Of a stretch of DNA of 64,000 nucleotides, positions 1-62,193 are shown in pieces. Position 1 is the stretch's first letter; each line of letters starts with the position of its first letter. The stretch spans positions 685,666 through 749,665 of the forward strand of contig JACRPS010000003.1 of the NCBI GenBank assembly GCA_016223085.1. The letters are read 5' to 3'. Source of the DNA: Chloroflexota bacterium (lineage in GTDB: Bacteria; Chloroflexota; Anaerolineae; Aggregatilineales; Phototrophicaceae). The notes below the pieces were generated by a model. It saw only the letters and a program-made list of their open reading frames with translations. It made no database searches and was not told where the DNA came from. A program made the position numbers and the translations under genes.

Positions 1-909
1 GCGCTGGGCGCGGCGGCGCTGCCCGTAGCCGCGCAGCTCACGCCGGTTTACGTCACCACGCAGCGGTTTGACAGCGGCCTGATGGTGTGGCGCGCCGACA
101 ACGGCACGATTTACGTCTTGAGTGACAGCGGCAGAGCATTTTCATATTCAATAACGGCATATTCCTCGCTGCCGGACAACCCCATCTTTGGCAATCCGCC
201 GAGTCGGCTGCGTCCGATTTTTGGCTTCGGCAAGGTATGGGGCAATAACGCCAGCGTGCGCGACCTGCTCGGCTGGCCGGTGCTGCCGGAAATTGGCTTT
301 AACACTACCGTACTGGTGCAGAACGCAACCATCTTCATCACCGAACTGGACGGCAGCGTGATTCAGATCAACCACAATGGGACGTGGACGCGGAACGGCC
401 CCGTTTCATCGGTTACACCGACACCGGTGGTTTGTCCACATCCGTTTTTCTTCGGAATGCCGACCGATGATATTTGCCCCGGCGCGCCGGTCACCACTCA
501 GGCCGCTTACCAACCCTATGAGCGCGGCTTTATGATCTGGCTGGCTGATGCTGGTGACATCTGGGTATTTGTAAACGCGCCGGCTCCGAACCGCTTCGCA
601 ACTTACGCTCACTTCAGCGAAAGCGACTACGCCCGCTTTGCCGACGCCCCGCCGCAGCCGCCGCCACCGGGCAGGTTCCAGCCGATCAACGGCTTTGGGC
701 GGGTGTGGCATAACTTAAACAACTACCTGACCGGCAGCACCATCCGCGCCGACCTGGGCTGGGCGACCGCGCCGGAAAGCAGCTACACGGCGACGCGGCA
801 GGTCTGGGGACGCACCTCTCACGTGCATGTGTATCTGTCGCTGCCCGATGGCCGTGTGGCTGACGCCTATCAGGGCTTGGCCGGTATCAACTGGACGTGG
901 GCAAAGTAG
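1..909 (+). CDS. GFG(K/R)VW-module protein, 5' end outside window
   Basis: The frame is open from base 1 to the TAG at 907-909, so the N-terminus lies outside the window. What is visible contains two copies of a module of about 100-120 residues: a GLMVW or GFMIW start, a short beta-rich stretch (TIYVL, DIWVF), then a conserved GFGKVW or GFGRVW and an RDLLGW or RADLGW end. The same module occurs in the lipoprotein at 17767-18717. I know such LGFP-like modules from secreted Chloroflexota proteins, where they are thought to sit outside the membrane; no enzymatic motif is visible. The protein is probably exported, but the signal peptide cannot be seen. Function is unknown. Confidence 0.75.
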   Translation, partial: ALGAAALPVAAQLTPVYVTTQRFDSGLMVWRADNGTIYVLSDSGRAFSYSITAYSSLPDNPIFGNPPSRLRPIFGFGKVWGNNASVRDLLGWPVLPEIGFNTTVLVQNATIFITELDGSVIQINHNGTWTRNGPVSSVTPTPVVCPHPFFFGMPTDDICPGAPVTTQAAYQPYERGFMIWLADAGDIWVFVNAPAPNRFATYAHFSESDYARFADAPPQPPPPGRFQPINGFGRVWHNLNNYLTGSTIRADLGWATAPESSYTATRQVWGRTSHVHVYLSLPDGRVADAYQGLAGINWTWAK

Positions 910-2658: not shown

Positions 2659-3240
2659 ATGCCACCCTCTGCCAGCGACGAGCAGGCGCTGATCGCCGCG
2701 CTCAAACGCCGCGACCCGGCAGCTTTAGCGACACTATTTGAACAGTATGCTGACAAAATTTATCGTCTGGCCGCCGGCCTGCTGCGCGACGAAGTGCAGG
2801 CTGACGGCGTGGTGCAAAACACCTTTCTGGCACTGATCGAAAAGATAGACACGTTCGAGGGGCGCGCCAACGTCGGCACGTGGCTGTACCGCGTCGGTTA
2901 CAACGAGTGTATGATGCGGCTGCGGCGCCGGCCCGACGCCGATCTGGACGACGGTGACGACGCCGACCTGATGCCTGCCAGCTTCACCGACTGGTCCGCC
3001 GTGCCGGACGCGCTCATCAGCAGCGCCGAAGCCACCGCCGAAATGGAGCGCGCCATCGCCAGCCTGAAGCCTGATCTGCGTGTCGTCTTTACCCTGCGCG
3101 ACATCGAAGACCTGTCCACCGCGGAAACCGCGCACATCCTGGGCATCAGCGAGGCGCTGGTGAAGGTGCGTCTGCACCGGGCGCGGTTGGCCCTGCGCGA
3201 AAAGCTGGCGGCCTATTTTGATGAATTCGCGCGGGCATAG
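2659..3240 (+). CDS. ECF-type RNA polymerase sigma factor
   Basis: A 193-residue sigma-70 family factor with region 2 (FEQYADKIYRLAAGLL, then TFEGRANVGTWLYRV) and region 4 (LRVVFTLRDIEDLS, then the helix-turn-helix AETAHILGISEALVKVRLHR). It would direct RNA polymerase to a small regulon. The start at 2659 is chosen because homologous sequence begins at about SDEQALIAAL; an upstream in-frame ATG at 2605 would add 18 unrelated residues. The zinc-finger anti-sigma protein that follows (3304) is its likely partner. The target promoters cannot be inferred. Confidence 0.9.
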   Translation: MPPSASDEQALIAALKRRDPAALATLFEQYADKIYRLAAGLLRDEVQADGVVQNTFLALIEKIDTFEGRANVGTWLYRVGYNECMMRLRRRPDADLDDGDDADLMPASFTDWSAVPDALISSAEATAEMERAIASLKPDLRVVFTLRDIEDLSTAETAHILGISEALVKVRLHRARLALREKLAAYFDEFARA

Positions 3241-35611: not shown

Positions 35612-36577
35612 ATGTCTCGTTCCTTCATCATTGACACCGACACTGCCTCTGACGACGCCGTTGCCCTCATCATGGCGCTGCGCGCGCCCGACGTGGACGT
35701 GAAAGCGATCACGGTGGTTTCCGGCAATGTGCCGCTGGAGCAGGGCGTTCGCAACGCGCTGTACACCGTCGAACTGTGCGGCGCGGACGTGCCGGTGTAC
35801 GCCGGCGCGGCGCGTCCCCTGGTACGCGAACCGTCCCATGCCGACTGGTATCACGGCAGGGACGGCCTGGGCGACCGGGGCTATCCCGCGCCGCAGCGGC
35901 AGCCTGCCGCCGGACATGCGGTTGACGCGCTGCTTGAGACCATCACGGCCAACCCCGGTATCGTGCTGGTAACGCTTGGCCCGCTGACGAACGTTGCGCT
36001 GGCAGTCAGCCGCGCGCCGGAGATCGTGCGCAACGTCAGCCGGTGTATCGTGATGGGCGGCGCGGCCTGCACCGTTGGCAACGTCACCCCGGCGGCGGAA
36101 TACAACATCTGGTGCGACCCGGAAGCGGCGCGCATCGTGTTCCATTCTGGCCTGCCGGTGGAGATGATCGGCTGGGAACTGTGCCGCTTCGACGCCAACC
36201 TGAACGAAGCGGACATGGCCTACGTGCGCGGCCTGAACACGCCGCTGGCACACTTCACACTGGACTGCAACGAAACGGCCATGCAGGCGAACTTCATCCA
36301 GACCGGCGCGGTTGGCATCTCGCTGCCCGACCCGGTGGCGATGGCCGTCGCGCTCGACCCAACCATCTGCACACGCAGCAGTAAGCACCGGGTTGAGATC
36401 GAAACGCAGAGCGAACTGACACGCGGCATGACGGTGGTGGACCAGTTGGGCGTGGCGAACGATGAGCGCAACCGCGACGTTTGGCGTCCGCTGCTGGCGA
36501 ACCCGTCGAACGTGACCGTATGCTGGGAGATTGACGCGCTGCGCTGGAAACAGATGCTGTATCAGGCGCTGGTGTAG
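35612..36577 (+). CDS. Nucleoside hydrolase (IUNH family)
   Basis: A 321-residue Ca-dependent ribohydrolase. The N-terminal DTDTASDDAVALIMALR supplies the Asp cluster for calcium and ribose; LVTLGPLTNVALAVSRAP and CRCIVMGG-like strands follow (written IVMGGAACTVGN), then EYNIWCDPEAA, and the C-terminal DP segment LPDPVAMAVALDP. It cleaves the N-glycosidic bond of purine or pyrimidine nucleosides; specificity is not readable. Its TAG stop lies in a GTAGGG repeat (36574-36600). Confidence 0.88.
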   Translation: MSRSFIIDTDTASDDAVALIMALRAPDVDVKAITVVSGNVPLEQGVRNALYTVELCGADVPVYAGAARPLVREPSHADWYHGRDGLGDRGYPAPQRQPAAGHAVDALLETITANPGIVLVTLGPLTNVALAVSRAPEIVRNVSRCIVMGGAACTVGNVTPAAEYNIWCDPEAARIVFHSGLPVEMIGWELCRFDANLNEADMAYVRGLNTPLAHFTLDCNETAMQANFIQTGAVGISLPDPVAMAVALDPTICTRSSKHRVEIETQSELTRGMTVVDQLGVANDERNRDVWRPLLANPSNVTVCWEIDALRWKQMLYQALV

Positions 36578-36600
36578 GGACACGATAGATCGTGTCCTAC
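36574..36600. repeat. GTAGGG-armed palindrome overlapping a stop codon
   Basis: Arms GTAGGGACACGAT and ATCGTGTCCTAC (one base lost). The TAG of the arm is the stop codon of the nucleoside hydrolase. Confidence 0.65.
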
Positions 36601-38350: not shown

Positions 38351-38378
38351 GTAGGGACACGATCTATTGTGTCCCTAC
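38351..38378. repeat. GTAGGG-armed palindrome
   Basis: Arms GTAGGGACACGAT and ATTGTGTCCCTAC in the divergent promoter region between acpS and the aldehyde dehydrogenase. Confidence 0.7.
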
Positions 38379-44081: not shown

Positions 44082-44118
44082 TAAAAATAAAAACGGGCCA
44101 CTCCTGAGAGTGACCCGT
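44082..44118 (-). terminator. Intrinsic terminator in the cysK leader
   Basis: On the minus strand, an 11-pair stem (44108-44118 with 44093-44103, one G-U pair) with a TCAG loop is followed by TTTTTATTTTT. It lies between the Cys-rich leader frame and cysK, 50 bases before the cysK start, so read-through is needed for expression. Confidence 0.85.
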
Positions 44119-44189
44119 CCGTTGGCTGCAATCCGTCTCTGTCGGCCCCTAGCAACGGCGTATCACACCACAGGAGAACTCCGTAGTGT
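44110..44189 (-). promoter_or_regulatory. Mutually exclusive leader RNA structures (attenuator 1:2 and 2:3)
   Basis: Segment 1 ACACTACGG (44181-44189) pairs with segment 2 CTGTGGTGT (44165-44173) around a 7-base loop. An overlapping part of segment 2 can instead pair with segment 3: GTGAT (44162-44166) with GTCAC (44110-44114), and CCGTTG (44153-44158) with CAACGG (44119-44124). Segment 3 overlaps the 5' arm of the terminator, so the second pairing would act as an antiterminator. A ribosome stalled at the Cys cluster would cover segment 1; one at the stop codon would cover segment 2. Confidence 0.65.
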
Positions 44190-44238
44190 CTTCACAACAG
44201 GGACAACAACAGGTGAAATGTGCCATTCGTGTTTGCAT
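44149..44238 (-). CDS. Cysteine-rich leader peptide of the cysK-cysE attenuator
   Basis: A 29-codon frame read from ATG 44238 (or 25 codons from ATG 44226) to TAG 44149-44151. It contains seven Cys codons: TGT-TGT-TGT-CCC-TGT-TGT at 44194-44211, one TGT at 44170-44172 and one TGC as the last sense codon. Six of seven are TGT, which the GC-rich genes here rarely use. The peptide has no domain or hydrophobic segment; it is a sensor whose translation depends on charged Cys-tRNA. The first ATG coincides with the predicted transcript start, suggesting leaderless translation; no Shine-Dalgarno site is visible for either ATG. Confidence 0.8.
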
Positions 44239-44245
44239 AGCTATC

Positions 44246-44274
44246 ATTGTATGATAGACGCAGGAAACATTCAA
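44246..44274 (-). promoter_or_regulatory. Sigma70-like promoter of cys leader
   Basis: -35 TTGAAT (44269-44274), 17-base spacer, -10 TACAAT (44246-44251), reading leftward. Transcription should start at 44238 or 44239, at the leader ATG. Confidence 0.7.
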
Positions 44275-44311: not shown

Positions 44312-45376
44312 CTAACATCCCGCCACTTCCGCCGCGCGGCGGGCGATCAGCGGAATCATCGTGCGGAACGCATCAAAGCGCGCATCCTGCGTCTGGCCGC
44401 GCTGGTAACGCACGTATATCTGCGCGGCGATGACCACCAGCCGGAACAGGCCAAGCGCGTGGTAAAAATGAATGTTGGACACGTCGCGCCCGCTTTTTTC
44501 GGCATAACGCGCCACCAGTTCGGCGCGGGTCATAAAGCGGTCGTCGCCGACCGGCATCATGGCGGCGGCCTGTAAATACGGTGGATCATCCGGCTGCGAC
44601 CAGTACGTCAGCAGCGCGCCCAGGTCGGACAGCGGGTCGCCCAGCGTGCACATGTCCCAATCGAAAATCGCCACCATTTTGCCGGGGTCGTCTGCCGCCA
44701 GCATGACGTTATCCAGTTTGTAGTCGTTGTGTACCAGCGTCGGCGCGCCTTCCGGCGGCAGGTTGGCCTTCAGCCAATGATAGACCGCGTCCATCTGCGG
44801 CAGATCATCCACTTTGGCGTTTTGCCAGCGCGCGTACCAGCCTTCGACCTGCCGGGCGATAAAACCGGCGGGTTTGCCCAGCGTTTCCAGTCCCAGCGCG
44901 GCGTAATCCACCGCGTGAAAAGCCGCCAGCGCGTCAATCAGGGCTTCACTCATGCGGCGCGGCGCGTCCGGGATGGACGCAAATTCGTCGGGAAGCGACT
45001 TCCGCACCACCACGCCGCGCCGGCGTTCCATCACAAAAAACGGCGCGCCAATGATGGTGGCATCGTCGCAGAACAGGAAGGCGCGCGGCGCCAGTGGAAA
45101 GACCCGGTACAGCACCGACAGCACCCGGTATTCGCGGCCCATGTCGTGCGCCGAGGGTGCGACCGGCCCCAGCGGCGGGCGGCGCAGTACGTACTGGTGC
45201 GTACCGTAATCCAGCAAATAGGTGAGGTTGGCCGCGCCGCCGCCAAACTGCCGCACCGTCAGCGGCTGGTCGCTGCCGTCCAGTTGGCCGCGCAGGTACG
45301 CCGCGAGGCGGTCTTCGTCAAAACGCTCGTCGGCGCGTACGGGAATGGTGTCGGGGTTTGGAGGAAGATGGAGCAT
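44312..45376 (-). CDS. Phosphotransferase (APH/choline-kinase fold)
   Basis: A 354-residue protein of the aminoglycoside phosphotransferase superfamily, of the kind found alone or fused to acyl-CoA dehydrogenases (ACAD10-like). Visible are the Gly-rich start FGGGAANLTYLL, the Lys/Arg region QYVLRRPPLG, the catalytic loop LVHNDYKLDNVML and the metal-binding FDWDMCTLGDPLSDL. It probably phosphorylates a small hydroxylated substrate; antibiotic resistance should not be assumed. ATG 45376 is supported by homology to the usual N-terminus. Confidence 0.85.
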   Translation of the reverse strand: MLHLPPNPDTIPVRADERFDEDRLAAYLRGQLDGSDQPLTVRQFGGGAANLTYLLDYGTHQYVLRRPPLGPVAPSAHDMGREYRVLSVLYRVFPLAPRAFLFCDDATIIGAPFFVMERRRGVVVRKSLPDEFASIPDAPRRMSEALIDALAAFHAVDYAALGLETLGKPAGFIARQVEGWYARWQNAKVDDLPQMDAVYHWLKANLPPEGAPTLVHNDYKLDNVMLAADDPGKMVAIFDWDMCTLGDPLSDLGALLTYWSQPDDPPYLQAAAMMPVGDDRFMTRAELVARYAEKSGRDVSNIHFYHALGLFRLVVIAAQIYVRYQRGQTQDARFDAFRTMIPLIARRAAEVAGC

Positions 45377-45469
45377 AAACAAATCACCTGTTCCAGTAAA
45401 CCAGTCATTTTCGATATTGTTCCGTAGGGGTGAGGCCATGCTTCGCCCCATATGCAGTAACTTAATACC

Positions 45470-45541
45470 TATCCGTAAACCTCTTTTATCTGTCGGTAGG
45501 GGCACGGCATGCCGTGCCCCTACGAAGGGTTTATGGATAGA
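45470..45541. mobile_element. MITE-like element, family A (72 bp core)
   Basis: CTATCCGTAAACC ... GGGTTTATGGATAG ends around a GTAGGGGCACGG palindrome. It has the same 72-base length as the copy at 17606. Flanks read TTAATAC and ATACTTAA, so the true ends may extend to a TTAA on each side. Confidence 0.7.
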
Positions 45542-47066: not shown

Positions 47067-47094
47067 GTAGGGACACGGCGTGATGTGTCCCTAC
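47067..47094. repeat. GTAGGG-armed palindrome
   Basis: Arms GTAGGGACACGGC and TGATGTGTCCCTAC (imperfect inside) between the TPR and DUF3124 genes. Confidence 0.6.
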
Positions 47095-60177: not shown

Positions 60178-62193
60178 GTGGGGGTGCGGCTGCCGGCTGT
60201 AGGGACGAGGCGTGCCTTGTCCCTGCGGTGGACATTTCCGCTGGTGGCGTTGGCGCTGCTGGCGGCGTTTGGGCTAATGACGGCGGGGCTTCAGCGCGAA
60301 AGCCTGTGGACAGATGAGGCATGGTCGGCTTGGGCGGTGCGGTCCCCCAATCTGGCCGTTACGCTGGAACGGATACGCGGCGATGTTCACCCGCCGCTGT
60401 ATTTTCTCCTGCTGGATGGATGGACGTGGCTCGCCGGCGACTCGGTTTTCGCGCTGCGCCTGCCATCGGCGCTGGCAGCGCTGGTCGGGCTGGCGGCGAC
60501 TTACGCCCTCGGCGTGCGCCTGTATGACCGGACAACCGGGCTGACGGCGCTCATCCTGCTGGCGACGGCCAGTTTTTTTATCTATTACGCCCGCGAAGCG
60601 CGGATGTACAGCCTGCTGCTGGCGCTGGCGGCGCTGACGACCCGGTTTTACCTGCGCTGGCGCTGCCGCCCGACGCTGCGGCGGTCGCTGATCTATGCGG
60701 CTTCGCTGGCCGCGCTGCTGTACACCCACTACGCTGGCGCGCTCATCTTGCTGACGCATCTGCTGCTGGCAAGCTATCAGGCAAACAGTCGTACTTCATT
60801 GACCTCTTTCACTCCCCTGCTCACCGGGGACAGTCGTCCCCATTCGAGTTCCCCTCTCCCCCGCATCCATGAGAGCCGAACTTTGATCGTTCCGCCTCCT
60901 GTCCCCTCCCCGAATTCGGGGAGGGTTAGGGAGGGGTTAAGCAGAACCTTTTTGCCTGATGCTGCGCCGTTCGCGCTGGCGCTCCTGCTGTTTGTGCCCT
61001 GGCTGCCGGCCTTCCTGGCCCAGATGCGTGCCAACCCAAATGGGCCGCTGGCCGTTCCCGTGCCAACCGCTTGGGGCACGGTCGCCACGCTGGTGCTGAT
61101 CCTCACCAGCAGCGCGGGCTGGCTGTTCCTCGTGCCATTTGCAGTGGCGCTGATTGCTGTAGGGGTGAGGCGCATCTCGCCCCTGCGGTCACCGCTGCTG
61201 CTGCTCCTGCTGTGGCTGCTGCTGACGCCGGTGATGCTGCTGGCGCTCAATGCCTGGGTCGCGCCGGTCTACCAGGTACGTTATACGATTGCGATTCTGC
61301 CTGCCGGGGCGCTGCTGCTGGCGGGGGCGCTGCGGCGCATCTGGATGTCGCTGGTAGGGACACGAGTTATCGTGTCCCTACTGCTGCTGGCGCTGGTGTA
61401 CGTGCAGCTTGTGGCTTACCCGGTCCTGTGGCCGGGCAAGCCGCCCTGGGAAGCGGCGCTGCGCCAGGTCATTGCGGAGCGCGACCCGCTGGAGCCGATC
61501 ATCACCGATTTTGCGCCCTACAGTCCGGCAGGGTACTACGACCGAACGCTGTACGTCCGGCGTGGTGTGGCACTTGACCTGTCATGGCGGGAGCATCATG
61601 CTGGCGAACTGCGGGCGCTGGTAGACCGGCTGCGGCGCGCACCGTCAGTATGGGTGGCGCTGCCCACCAACACGGCCAGAGCCTGGCACATCGCCGCGCT
61701 GCTGGACGAAACGCACGGCGCGGGCTACCGTTCCGGCCTTGCCAACCTGATCTTTTACCGCTTCGACCGCGACCACCCTGGCGACCTGCGCTTTCACTTC
61801 GGCTGCCTGCTGCGTTATGAACAGGGCGAGGGGGCAAATATCGAATTGAACGTAACCCCCGGCGCGGACGTGTGTTCCGATTATACGTTTACAGCGTTAG
61901 CGCCGCTGGACAGCCAGTATTCGGCGGGGCTGCACGTGGTGGACATCACCGGCAGCCAGTCAATCACGCAGGTTGACGCCGGATTGGGGATACATGACAC
62001 GGGTGAAACCATACATTTTTCACCCTGCCTCACTATTCCAGCCGGTACGGCGCCGGGGTATTATCATCTGGAACTGTCGGTTTATCGTTGGGCTACCGGG
62101 GAACGCCTGCCCGTGATGGAGGCTGGCGCGGGCCAGGCGGTCAACTGGGGCGACGTGATGCGGCTGGCGGCAGTGACCGTCGTCGCTGAGTAG
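60178..62193 (+). CDS. Membrane glycosyltransferase (GT39/ArnT-like), paralogue 2, with in-frame repeats
   Basis: A 671-residue GT-C enzyme related to that at 30814. The first outside loop has LWTDEAWSAW, followed by RGDVHPPLYFLLLDGWTWLA, which carries the usual His. About 10-12 membrane helices are followed by a soluble C-terminal beta domain (SAGLHVVDITG, YYHLELSVYRWATGERLP) shared with the paralogue. GTG 60178 has AGGAG seven bases upstream. Repeat sequence is translated at four places: 60199-60226, about 60830-60945, 61159-61186 and 61354-61381. The second adds about 50 hydrophilic residues absent from the paralogue. Confidence 0.8.
   Translation: MGVRLPAVGTRRALSLRWTFPLVALALLAAFGLMTAGLQRESLWTDEAWSAWAVRSPNLAVTLERIRGDVHPPLYFLLLDGWTWLAGDSVFALRLPSALAALVGLAATYALGVRLYDRTTGLTALILLATASFFIYYAREARMYSLLLALAALTTRFYLRWRCRPTLRRSLIYAASLAALLYTHYAGALILLTHLLLASYQANSRTSLTSFTPLLTGDSRPHSSSPLPRIHESRTLIVPPPVPSPNSGRVREGLSRTFLPDAAPFALALLLFVPWLPAFLAQMRANPNGPLAVPVPTAWGTVATLVLILTSSAGWLFLVPFAVALIAVGVRRISPLRSPLLLLLLWLLLTPVMLLALNAWVAPVYQVRYTIAILPAGALLLAGALRRIWMSLVGTRVIVSLLLLALVYVQLVAYPVLWPGKPPWEAALRQVIAERDPLEPIITDFAPYSPAGYYDRTLYVRRGVALDLSWREHHAGELRALVDRLRRAPSVWVALPTNTARAWHIAALLDETHGAGYRSGLANLIFYRFDRDHPGDLRFHFGCLLRYEQGEGANIELNVTPGADVCSDYTFTALAPLDSQYSAGLHVVDITGSQSITQVDAGLGIHDTGETIHFSPCLTIPAGTAPGYYHLELSVYRWATGERLPVMEAGAGQAVNWGDVMRLAAVTVVAE
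60199..60226. repeat. GTAGGG palindrome within the coding frame (N-terminus)
   Basis: Arms GTAGGGACGAGGC and GCCTTGTCCCTGC (two mismatches), translated as part of the N-terminus (VGTRRALSLR). Confidence 0.6.
60830..60945. repeat. Repeat-like insertion within the coding frame
   Basis: GGGGACAGTCGTCCCC, then CCCTCCCCGAATTCGGGGAG and a run of GGGAGGGG-type sequence, translated as a Pro/Ser/Arg-rich stretch between two membrane segments. The paralogue at 30814 has only a short loop here. Confidence 0.55.
61159..61186. repeat. Decayed GTAGGG palindrome within the coding frame
   Basis: Arms GTAGGGGTGAG and CTCGCCCCTGC, translated in frame as VGVRRISPLR. Confidence 0.55.
61354..61381. repeat. Perfect GTAGGG palindrome within the coding frame
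   Basis: Perfect 12-base arms GTAGGGACACGA and TCGTGTCCCTAC with a GTTA loop, translated in frame as VGTRVIVSLL inside or beside a membrane helix. Confidence 0.75.

Follow-up and report, generated by a model that had tools for sequence, protein, structure and literature searches.

A probable ribosome-mediated cysteine attenuator before cysK-cysE in Chloroflexota, with related Cys-codon leaders before other sulfur genes

Introduction

The trp, his and leu operons are classical ribosome-mediated attenuators. Cys-rich leader frames of mycobacteria are reportedly the subject of Canestrari 2020; cysA2, a gene mentioned below, encodes a rhodanese. The regulation of amino-acid synthesis in Chloroflexota is, to our knowledge, little studied.

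The closest published element that we found is the uORFC-8-2 motif, which lies before cysS in Rhodobacterales and which is described, in the relevant passages of its source, as having tandem Cys codons, an intrinsic terminator and a proposed ribosome-mediated attenuation mechanism (PMC8632094). Cys leader peptides are described in a passage of another source for Mycobacterium, Propionibacterium and Bifidobacterium, without obvious terminators (PMC1262725). Excerpts of a further report place Cys-rich, leaderless frames of mycobacteria before cysA2 and other genes (PMC4633059), and a passage elsewhere cites the mycobacterial Cys frames as translation attenuation (PMC13236596). Cysteine attenuation has so far been represented by actinobacterial frames lacking clear terminators and by one cysS motif; among the papers ranked highest in a limited search of mostly open literature, none concerned a cysteine attenuator in Chloroflexota or before cysK. 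Here we describe a locus that, by nearly every sequence test, the 1:2 hairpin excepted, is most likely a complete cysteine attenuator working in the manner of trp.

Results

The locus lies in a window of 64,000 nt, the whole stretch of DNA analysed, and has the following features.

45505-44312, minus strand: APH-domain (phosphotransferase-like) gene upstream of the leader (domain search)
44274-44246, minus strand: promoter-like pair TTGAAT-17-TACAAT (consensus scan, 9 of 12 matches)
44238-44149, minus strand: leader frame of 29 codons, 7 of them Cys (translation)
44211-44194, minus strand: control codons TGT TGT TGT CCC TGT TGT, Cys-Cys-Cys-Pro-Cys-Cys (sequence)
44189-44180, minus strand: segment 1, the 5' side of the 1:2 hairpin (fold)
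44189-44180 with 44175-44165, minus strand: 1:2 pairing (fold)
44184-44143, minus strand: segment 2, the antiterminator strand, taking in the end of the leader frame and its stop codon (duplex and stalled-ribosome fold)
44151-44149, minus strand: stop codon of the leader frame (translation)
44120-44091, minus strand: intrinsic terminator hairpin of 13 pairs, then the T-rich tail TTATTTTTA (terminator scan)
44032-43094, minus strand: cysK, cysteine synthase A (NCBIfam TIGR01139, 479 bits against a cut-off of 350.95)
43091-42375, minus strand: cysE, serine O-acetyltransferase (NCBIfam TIGR01172, 237.2 bits against a cut-off of 210.65)

The 279-nt intergenic region between the APH-domain gene and cysK holds the promoter-like pair, the Cys frame and the terminator. 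The first-pass annotation had placed a promoter-like pair on this strand, and the consensus scan recovers it; it had also described a frame of 29 codons, seven of them for Cys and five of these within six consecutive codons, and translation confirms this, with the five lying in 44211-44194. Such features are rare in dinucleotide-shuffled versions of the intergenic region: at least five Cys in six codons arose in 2 of 20000 shuffles, a frame of at most 60 codons with at least seven Cys in 62 of 20000, and a terminator as good by our in-house score in none of 2000. The region thus has a Cys-enriched leader frame and an intrinsic terminator between that frame and the structural gene, and the genes downstream, identified through NCBIfam equivalogs, make the amino acid that would be sensed. 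From the end of the Cys cluster to the end of the stop codon is 45 nt, the terminator ends 58 nt before the cysK start, and only 2 nt separate the cysK stop from the cysE ATG. A ribosome stopped at the control codons would reach as far as segment 1. Neither protein contains cysteine (0 residues in CysK, 0 in CysE; cysK has no TGT or TGC codon), so cysteine starvation should not impair their translation.

The element is very probably an attenuator of cysK-cysE transcription in which the translating ribosome senses the level of charged cysteine tRNA. We infer that in the cell transcription runs from this promoter, the frame is translated, ribosomes stall and transcription terminates. RNA polymerase would start near 44240 and ribosomes would translate the short frame. 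With enough cysteine, they would translate through the Cys codons as far as the stop at 44151-44149 and there either sit on part of segment 2 or leave; with segment 2 covered, or the ribosome gone, the hairpin at 44120-44091 would form and transcription would end near 44082. When cysteinyl-tRNA is short, a ribosome would halt on 44211-44194 and cover segment 1. Segment 2, left uncovered, could then pair with the 5' arm, the loop and the 3' arm of the terminator as these are being made. With this antiterminator formed, the polymerase would continue into cysK-cysE, messages that need no cysteine.

Pairings of this kind were examined across 25 related leaders, called group I and defined below. 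Alignment A1 comprised 24 of the 25 (L010 was left out as a near-copy of L009). The terminator pairs form in 97.7% of the cells of these 24 leaders, and 8 of 11 pairs are changed on both sides, a number reached by 3 of 500 shuffles; none of 500 shuffles reached the covariation score. When the alignment was slid, paired cells dropped to 34-47%. For the antiterminator, the 50 nt after the Cys cluster were paired with the leader's own terminator or with the terminators of other genera, using one leader per genus (15 of the 25). Own terminators gave -26.1 kcal/mol against -22.3 kcal/mol for permuted partners (sd 0.87) over the 15 genera, and none of 20000 permutations was as low; a repeat with 14 genera, leaving out L114 with its too short upstream region, again gave 0 of 20000. 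Control zones showed no such preference, with counts of 7736 of 20000 before the Cys cluster, 14933 just before the terminator and 4691 after it. Individually, L013 and L114 paired with their own terminator no better than with those of others, and the preference was middling for L009, L010, L021 and L024.

The terminator and T-tract proposed in the first-pass annotation are found as a covarying 13-pair hairpin with a T-rich tail. Of the three pairings for which it had proposed a covariation test, the terminator covaries and the antiterminator prefers its own partner, but the 1:2 pairing fares less well: a 1:2 hairpin exists in the window near the bounds first proposed, yet its folding energy over the 25 loci has a mean z of only -0.65, and this makes it, on sequence grounds, the part of the attenuator with weakest backing. 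The 2:3 pairing had been drawn as two separate pieces. Both occur pair for pair in the stalled-ribosome fold, but as part of one longer helix: the minimum-energy fold in the window is a 34-pair antiterminator, 44182-44143 with 44135-44095, and the duplex prediction pairs 44184-44157 with 44120-44093. The antiterminator does not stop at the 5' arm of the terminator but extends over the loop and into the 3' arm.

Switching was modelled with the ribosome as a fixed footprint, so that all folding values are predictions. In the window, the terminator has a probability of 0.99 in free RNA, 0.16 with a ribosome on the Cys codons and 0.99 with a ribosome at the stop. Across 24 loci at equilibrium, the terminator fell below 0.75 under a stalled ribosome in only 4 (L003, L007, L025, L028) and stayed above 0.85 in 20, so that most relatives would need co-transcriptional kinetics. 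With the terminator 72% transcribed, the expected pairs with upstream RNA averaged 13.9 under stalling, 9.4 in free RNA and 5.6 with the ribosome at the stop. The part-made terminator had more expected pairs stalled than at the stop in 24 of 25 loci, and exceeded the free state by more than 3 in 15 of 25. The window, at 16.3 pairs stalled, 15.8 free and 4.1 at the stop, is outside those 15. We conclude that, in this model, the switch is visible at equilibrium in the window, whereas in most relatives it is visible only if folding is co-transcriptional. The own-partner test and the fold switch in the window both point to an antiterminator that is mutually exclusive with the terminator. The classical attenuation geometry first proposed for this locus is favoured by conservation, covariation, own-partner preference and this fold switch.

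The ATG at 44238 lies 7 nt past the -10 box, and an alternative in-frame ATG stands at 44226. In 4 of 6 loci of the window's genus the ATG is 6-7 nt past a TACAAT box, without a listed Shine-Dalgarno motif; because of this arrangement, the leader frame is probably leaderless in the genus, judging by sequence. The absence of the motif is itself weak evidence for such a start, since a Shine-Dalgarno-like motif from our in-house list precedes the candidate start in only 3 of all 25 group I loci. Outside the genus, the distance from -10 to ATG is mostly 20-60 nt. A -10-like box, loosely defined, stands ahead of the leader frame in all group I leaders (24 of 25) but L114, for which 159 nt of upstream sequence were available. 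The probably leaderless start is a feature that the first-pass annotation did not include.

Group I was assembled from cysK orthologues drawn from 101 genomes, own included, which gave 26 loci whose upstream region could be read (L003-L028), all of them in the order to which the window belongs. Relatives had been proposed to carry short Cys-rich frames with a downstream terminator, and 23 of these 26 cysK leaders do; L015, L016 and L027 are without the element, L016 being from the window's genus but with a different upstream sequence. The weakest of the 23 are L020, with two Cys in the cluster, and L007, with three in six codons. Together with L113 and L114 from a search of the class, they make up the 25 leaders. 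The stop lies 26-46 nt from the terminator, and the end of the Cys cluster 27-51 nt from the end of the stop codon; the frame chosen was the one richest in Cys that ended at most 80 nt from the best terminator, so that Cys content and spacing are in part selected for. Outside the Cys cluster the peptides are strongly divergent between genera, with CCCPCC kept in three genus leaders (L003, L004 and L285). The number of Cys codons varies, always in frame, and TGT outnumbers TGC in the clusters (69 versus 18). A cysE match is present in 25 of 25 loci and the window's upstream gene, within the fetched flank, in 3 of 25, which indicates that the element travels with cysK-cysE. Loss of the element with its surroundings kept, named in the first-pass annotation as evidence that would count against attenuation, was not seen: the upstream gene was detected in 3 of the 25 loci, yet the element persists. 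In one genome (G013) two contigs carry cysK, in each case behind a separate CCCPCC leader, and the second of these is L285; because the second copy is cut by the contig end, two strains in one assembly are possible.

A covariance model, R1, was built from 24 of the 25 group I leaders. It matched 74 of 154 genomes of the order at E <= 0.01. In each of the 30 best fetched matches (E <= 9.1e-12) cysK lies downstream in the same orientation, and 8 of these 30 come from genomes absent from the model. Across the phylum, 6 of 400 genomes, own included, matched at E <= 1e-4. Three of the five foreign matches were examined: L295, in the same phylum but outside the class, has a CACCCC frame and a terminator before a rhodanese-like gene (by eye), and in L294 and L297 a Cys leader is absent.

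A pattern scan of the 400-nt regions upstream of 107 class-level cysK loci suggested a second architecture, group II, which appears from sequence to be a CxCxxRG frame in which GCGGGG pairs with CCCCGC some way off. On the forward strand, 25 regions had CxCx[RKGWT]R in a short frame and on the reverse 0; for poly-Cys patterns the counts were 38 versus 1, and for all patterns together 65 versus 4. The patterns were written after viewing the forward strands, so that the reverse strand is the only unseen control. L007 and L020 escape them, and 42 of the 107 loci match none. In group II the GCGGGG directly follows the Cys codons and pairs with a CCCCGC further 3', the best partner lying 70-90 nt past the first Cys codon in 24 of 37 loci. 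In those 37 loci (of 42; L109, L170, L167, L156 and L147 were left out as duplicates or unclear) own partners gave -19.6 against -17.2 for permuted ones, with 0 of 20000 permutations as low. Alignment A2 held 21 of 26 prepared leaders, with L035, L053, L058, L064 and L123 left out for uncertain ends; in it the GCGGGG/CCCCGC helix is paired in 95.1% of cells with 5 of 8 pairs changed on both sides, and a second, inner helix in 70.6%.

The group II model, R2, matched 36 of 400 phylum genomes at E <= 0.001, all 36 in the window's class. A CxC frame is present in 30 of 30 fetched loci, partly by construction, as the model contains it. Directly downstream is a cysteine synthase gene in 26 of the 30 (9 cysK, 17 cysM-like); two more precede a DUF4395 gene and then cysK, and two a rhodanese-domain gene. 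The DUF4395 cases are L243 and L257, the latter with an intervening thioredoxin-like stretch (by eye). Cys leaders before rhodanese-domain genes were seen in L251 and L261 (group II, Pfam) and in L295 (group I-like, by eye); a gene of this kind, cysA2, also follows a mycobacterial Cys frame.

An Rfam search of 12 leader loci at E <= 1 returned matches only in L038, a tRNA and a SAM riboswitch, and in L040, where the four microRNA-named matches are far below their gathering scores and were set aside. In L038, a group II relative, the SAM riboswitch (RF00162) and tRNA lie just 3' of cysK, at 3137-3239.

Weaker R1 matches led to other sulfur genes. They number 73 rows (E 3.6e-6 to 0.01), of which 17, all from the top 23, were fetched; 10 of the 17 have a Cys leader and a terminator. 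Downstream is a JAB-ThiS-ThiF operon in L270, L271, L272 and L281, a homocysteine synthase-like metY directly in L275, and a JAB gene followed by metY in L274, L276, L279, L282 and L283; families were searched for L281 and L282 only, and the other operons are assigned by likeness. The other fetched regions were rejected as Cys leaders: the match sits after an L36-like frame in L273 (by eye) and after a tRNA gene in L289, in L277 a frame rich in Val, Ile and Leu precedes an aminotransferase gene, and in L278, L280, L284 and L288 a Cys leader is absent. Many of the remaining 56 rows may be plain terminators. The frame in L277, MKQATSKTVISIILISLIVLVLIIKNER, at 242-328 (plus strand), is followed by a strong terminator and then by aminotransferase class IV (ilvE-like) and TPP-enzyme (ilvB-like) genes; from its sequence this leader resembles an attenuator for branched-chain amino acids, within the same bacterial family.

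The window's own genome also has a JAB-metY operon with a Cys leader.

G000:C12:286780-286615, minus strand: Cys leader and terminator before JAB-metY (L290)

Its frame, MNDVNRFPTLNPEAMPCMMCMCMQGCFDSQGGRTRG, at G000:C12:286780-286670, has alternating Met and Cys codons; its stop is followed, 26 nt on, by a hairpin of 11 pairs (-18.3 kcal/mol) and a T-rich tail. A cysM-like gene of the same genome (G000:C17; L239) is preceded by the short frame MLACLCCCLKRGA at L239 3437-3396 (minus strand), followed by a long-range structure (-45.8 kcal/mol) that ends in a T-tract. Although this CxC leader precedes the cysM-like gene, R2 had no match in the own genome, so the leader cannot be counted as group II. 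A CBS-like paralogue at C33 in this genome has no Cys leader. Five Cys codons in six were found at 22 places in the own genome, the window leader included; of the 21 others, C17:33133, C22:139702, C12:857835 and window position 61196 were rejected for long frames or CTG-rich sequence.

A palindrome, TAGGGACAC...GTGTCC(C)TA, occurs four times in the window (36575-36599, 38352-38377, 47068-47093 and 61355-61380). The same TAGGGACAC palindrome is near both other Cys leaders of the own genome, at G000:C12:286920-286891 and in L239. It is probably a repeated intergenic or mobile element.

Discussion

The Cys frame might instead act through translation or Rho, a stalled ribosome altering access to the cysK start or blocking Rho, with the hairpin a partial terminator. 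Precedent for this comes from mycobacteria, whose Cys leader frames are described in a passage of one source as lacking obvious terminators (PMC1262725), are leaderless in the cases that excerpts of another present (PMC4633059), as the window frame also appears to be, and in M. smegmatis are said, in a passage of a third, to work by translation attenuation (PMC13236596). Here, however, a strong, covarying intrinsic terminator follows the frame and ends 58 nt before the cysK start, and we regard an action through translation or Rho as improbable. Alternatively, the hairpin might merely end transcripts of the phosphotransferase-like gene upstream, with the Cys run arising by chance. The position of that APH-domain gene on the same strand, at 44312-45505, would suit this, but the gene is found in 3 of 25 group I loci against 25 of 25 for cysE, and Cys frames with terminators recur before other sulfur operons; we find such an origin hard to credit.

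SAM riboswitches or T-boxes frequently control genes for cysteine and methionine, and cysK too might be governed by a metabolite riboswitch or T-box, with the Cys codons incidental. We consider this very unlikely: no Rfam family reached its gathering score in the window, the window leader with its flanks (L001) had no match at E <= 1, and the Cys codons keep their frame although their number differs and both TGT and TGC are used, as expected of codons. The conservation of CCCPCC in L003, L004 and L285 could also reflect a functional Cys-rich micropeptide, for example one binding metal or acting in redox chemistry, with attenuation secondary. Elsewhere, though, only Cys richness is kept and the peptide otherwise changes, whereas the RNA pairing stays, and we give a micropeptide almost no credence. 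Ribosome-mediated transcription attenuation is the reading that we adopt.

More broadly, we lean towards the view, from sequence comparison, that cysteine supply in Anaerolineae, and perhaps in more of the Chloroflexota, is under an attenuator regulon with at least two leader-RNA architectures that reaches cysK-cysE, cysM-like, metY, JAB-ThiS-ThiF and rhodanese genes; the metY leaders may sense both Met and Cys. The attenuation principle is already known; more of the novelty lies in the regulon and in the second RNA architecture. To have a complete cysteine attenuator, with covariation, ahead of a cysteine synthase gene and again before several sulfur operons would amount to a directly testable regulon. 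In uncultured lineages, sulfur genes could be recognised by the short cysteine-rich frames before them. The locus also offers a case of biosynthetic enzymes that avoid the amino acid they make.

Like the trp, his and leu attenuators, the element has codons for the end product in its leader, an antiterminator that is the alternative to an intrinsic terminator, and biosynthetic genes downstream. It differs from them in that the amino acid is cysteine, the antiterminator extends into the loop and 3' arm of the terminator, the leader frame is probably leaderless in the genus and the 1:2 hairpin is weak. With uORFC-8-2 it shares, the RNAs being compared by description in the relevant passages of the source, Cys codons in an upstream frame, an intrinsic terminator and a proposed ribosome-mediated attenuation (PMC8632094). 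That motif is described there for cysS of alphaproteobacteria, usually with a tandem pair of Cys codons (positions 14 and 15; PMC8632094), whereas the leaders described here precede cysK-cysE and other sulfur genes in Chloroflexota, in relatives labelled Chloroflexi or Anaerolineae. The mycobacterial frames are similarly Cys-rich and precede sulfur genes, cysA2 among them, and they are leaderless, as the window frame may be, according to excerpts of the source (PMC4633059). In those frames the Cys run is near the stop, with no conserved terminator reported in the passages concerned (PMC1262725, PMC4633059); in the Chloroflexota leader, by contrast, 45 nt separate the cluster from the end of the stop codon, and the frame is followed by a strong terminator.
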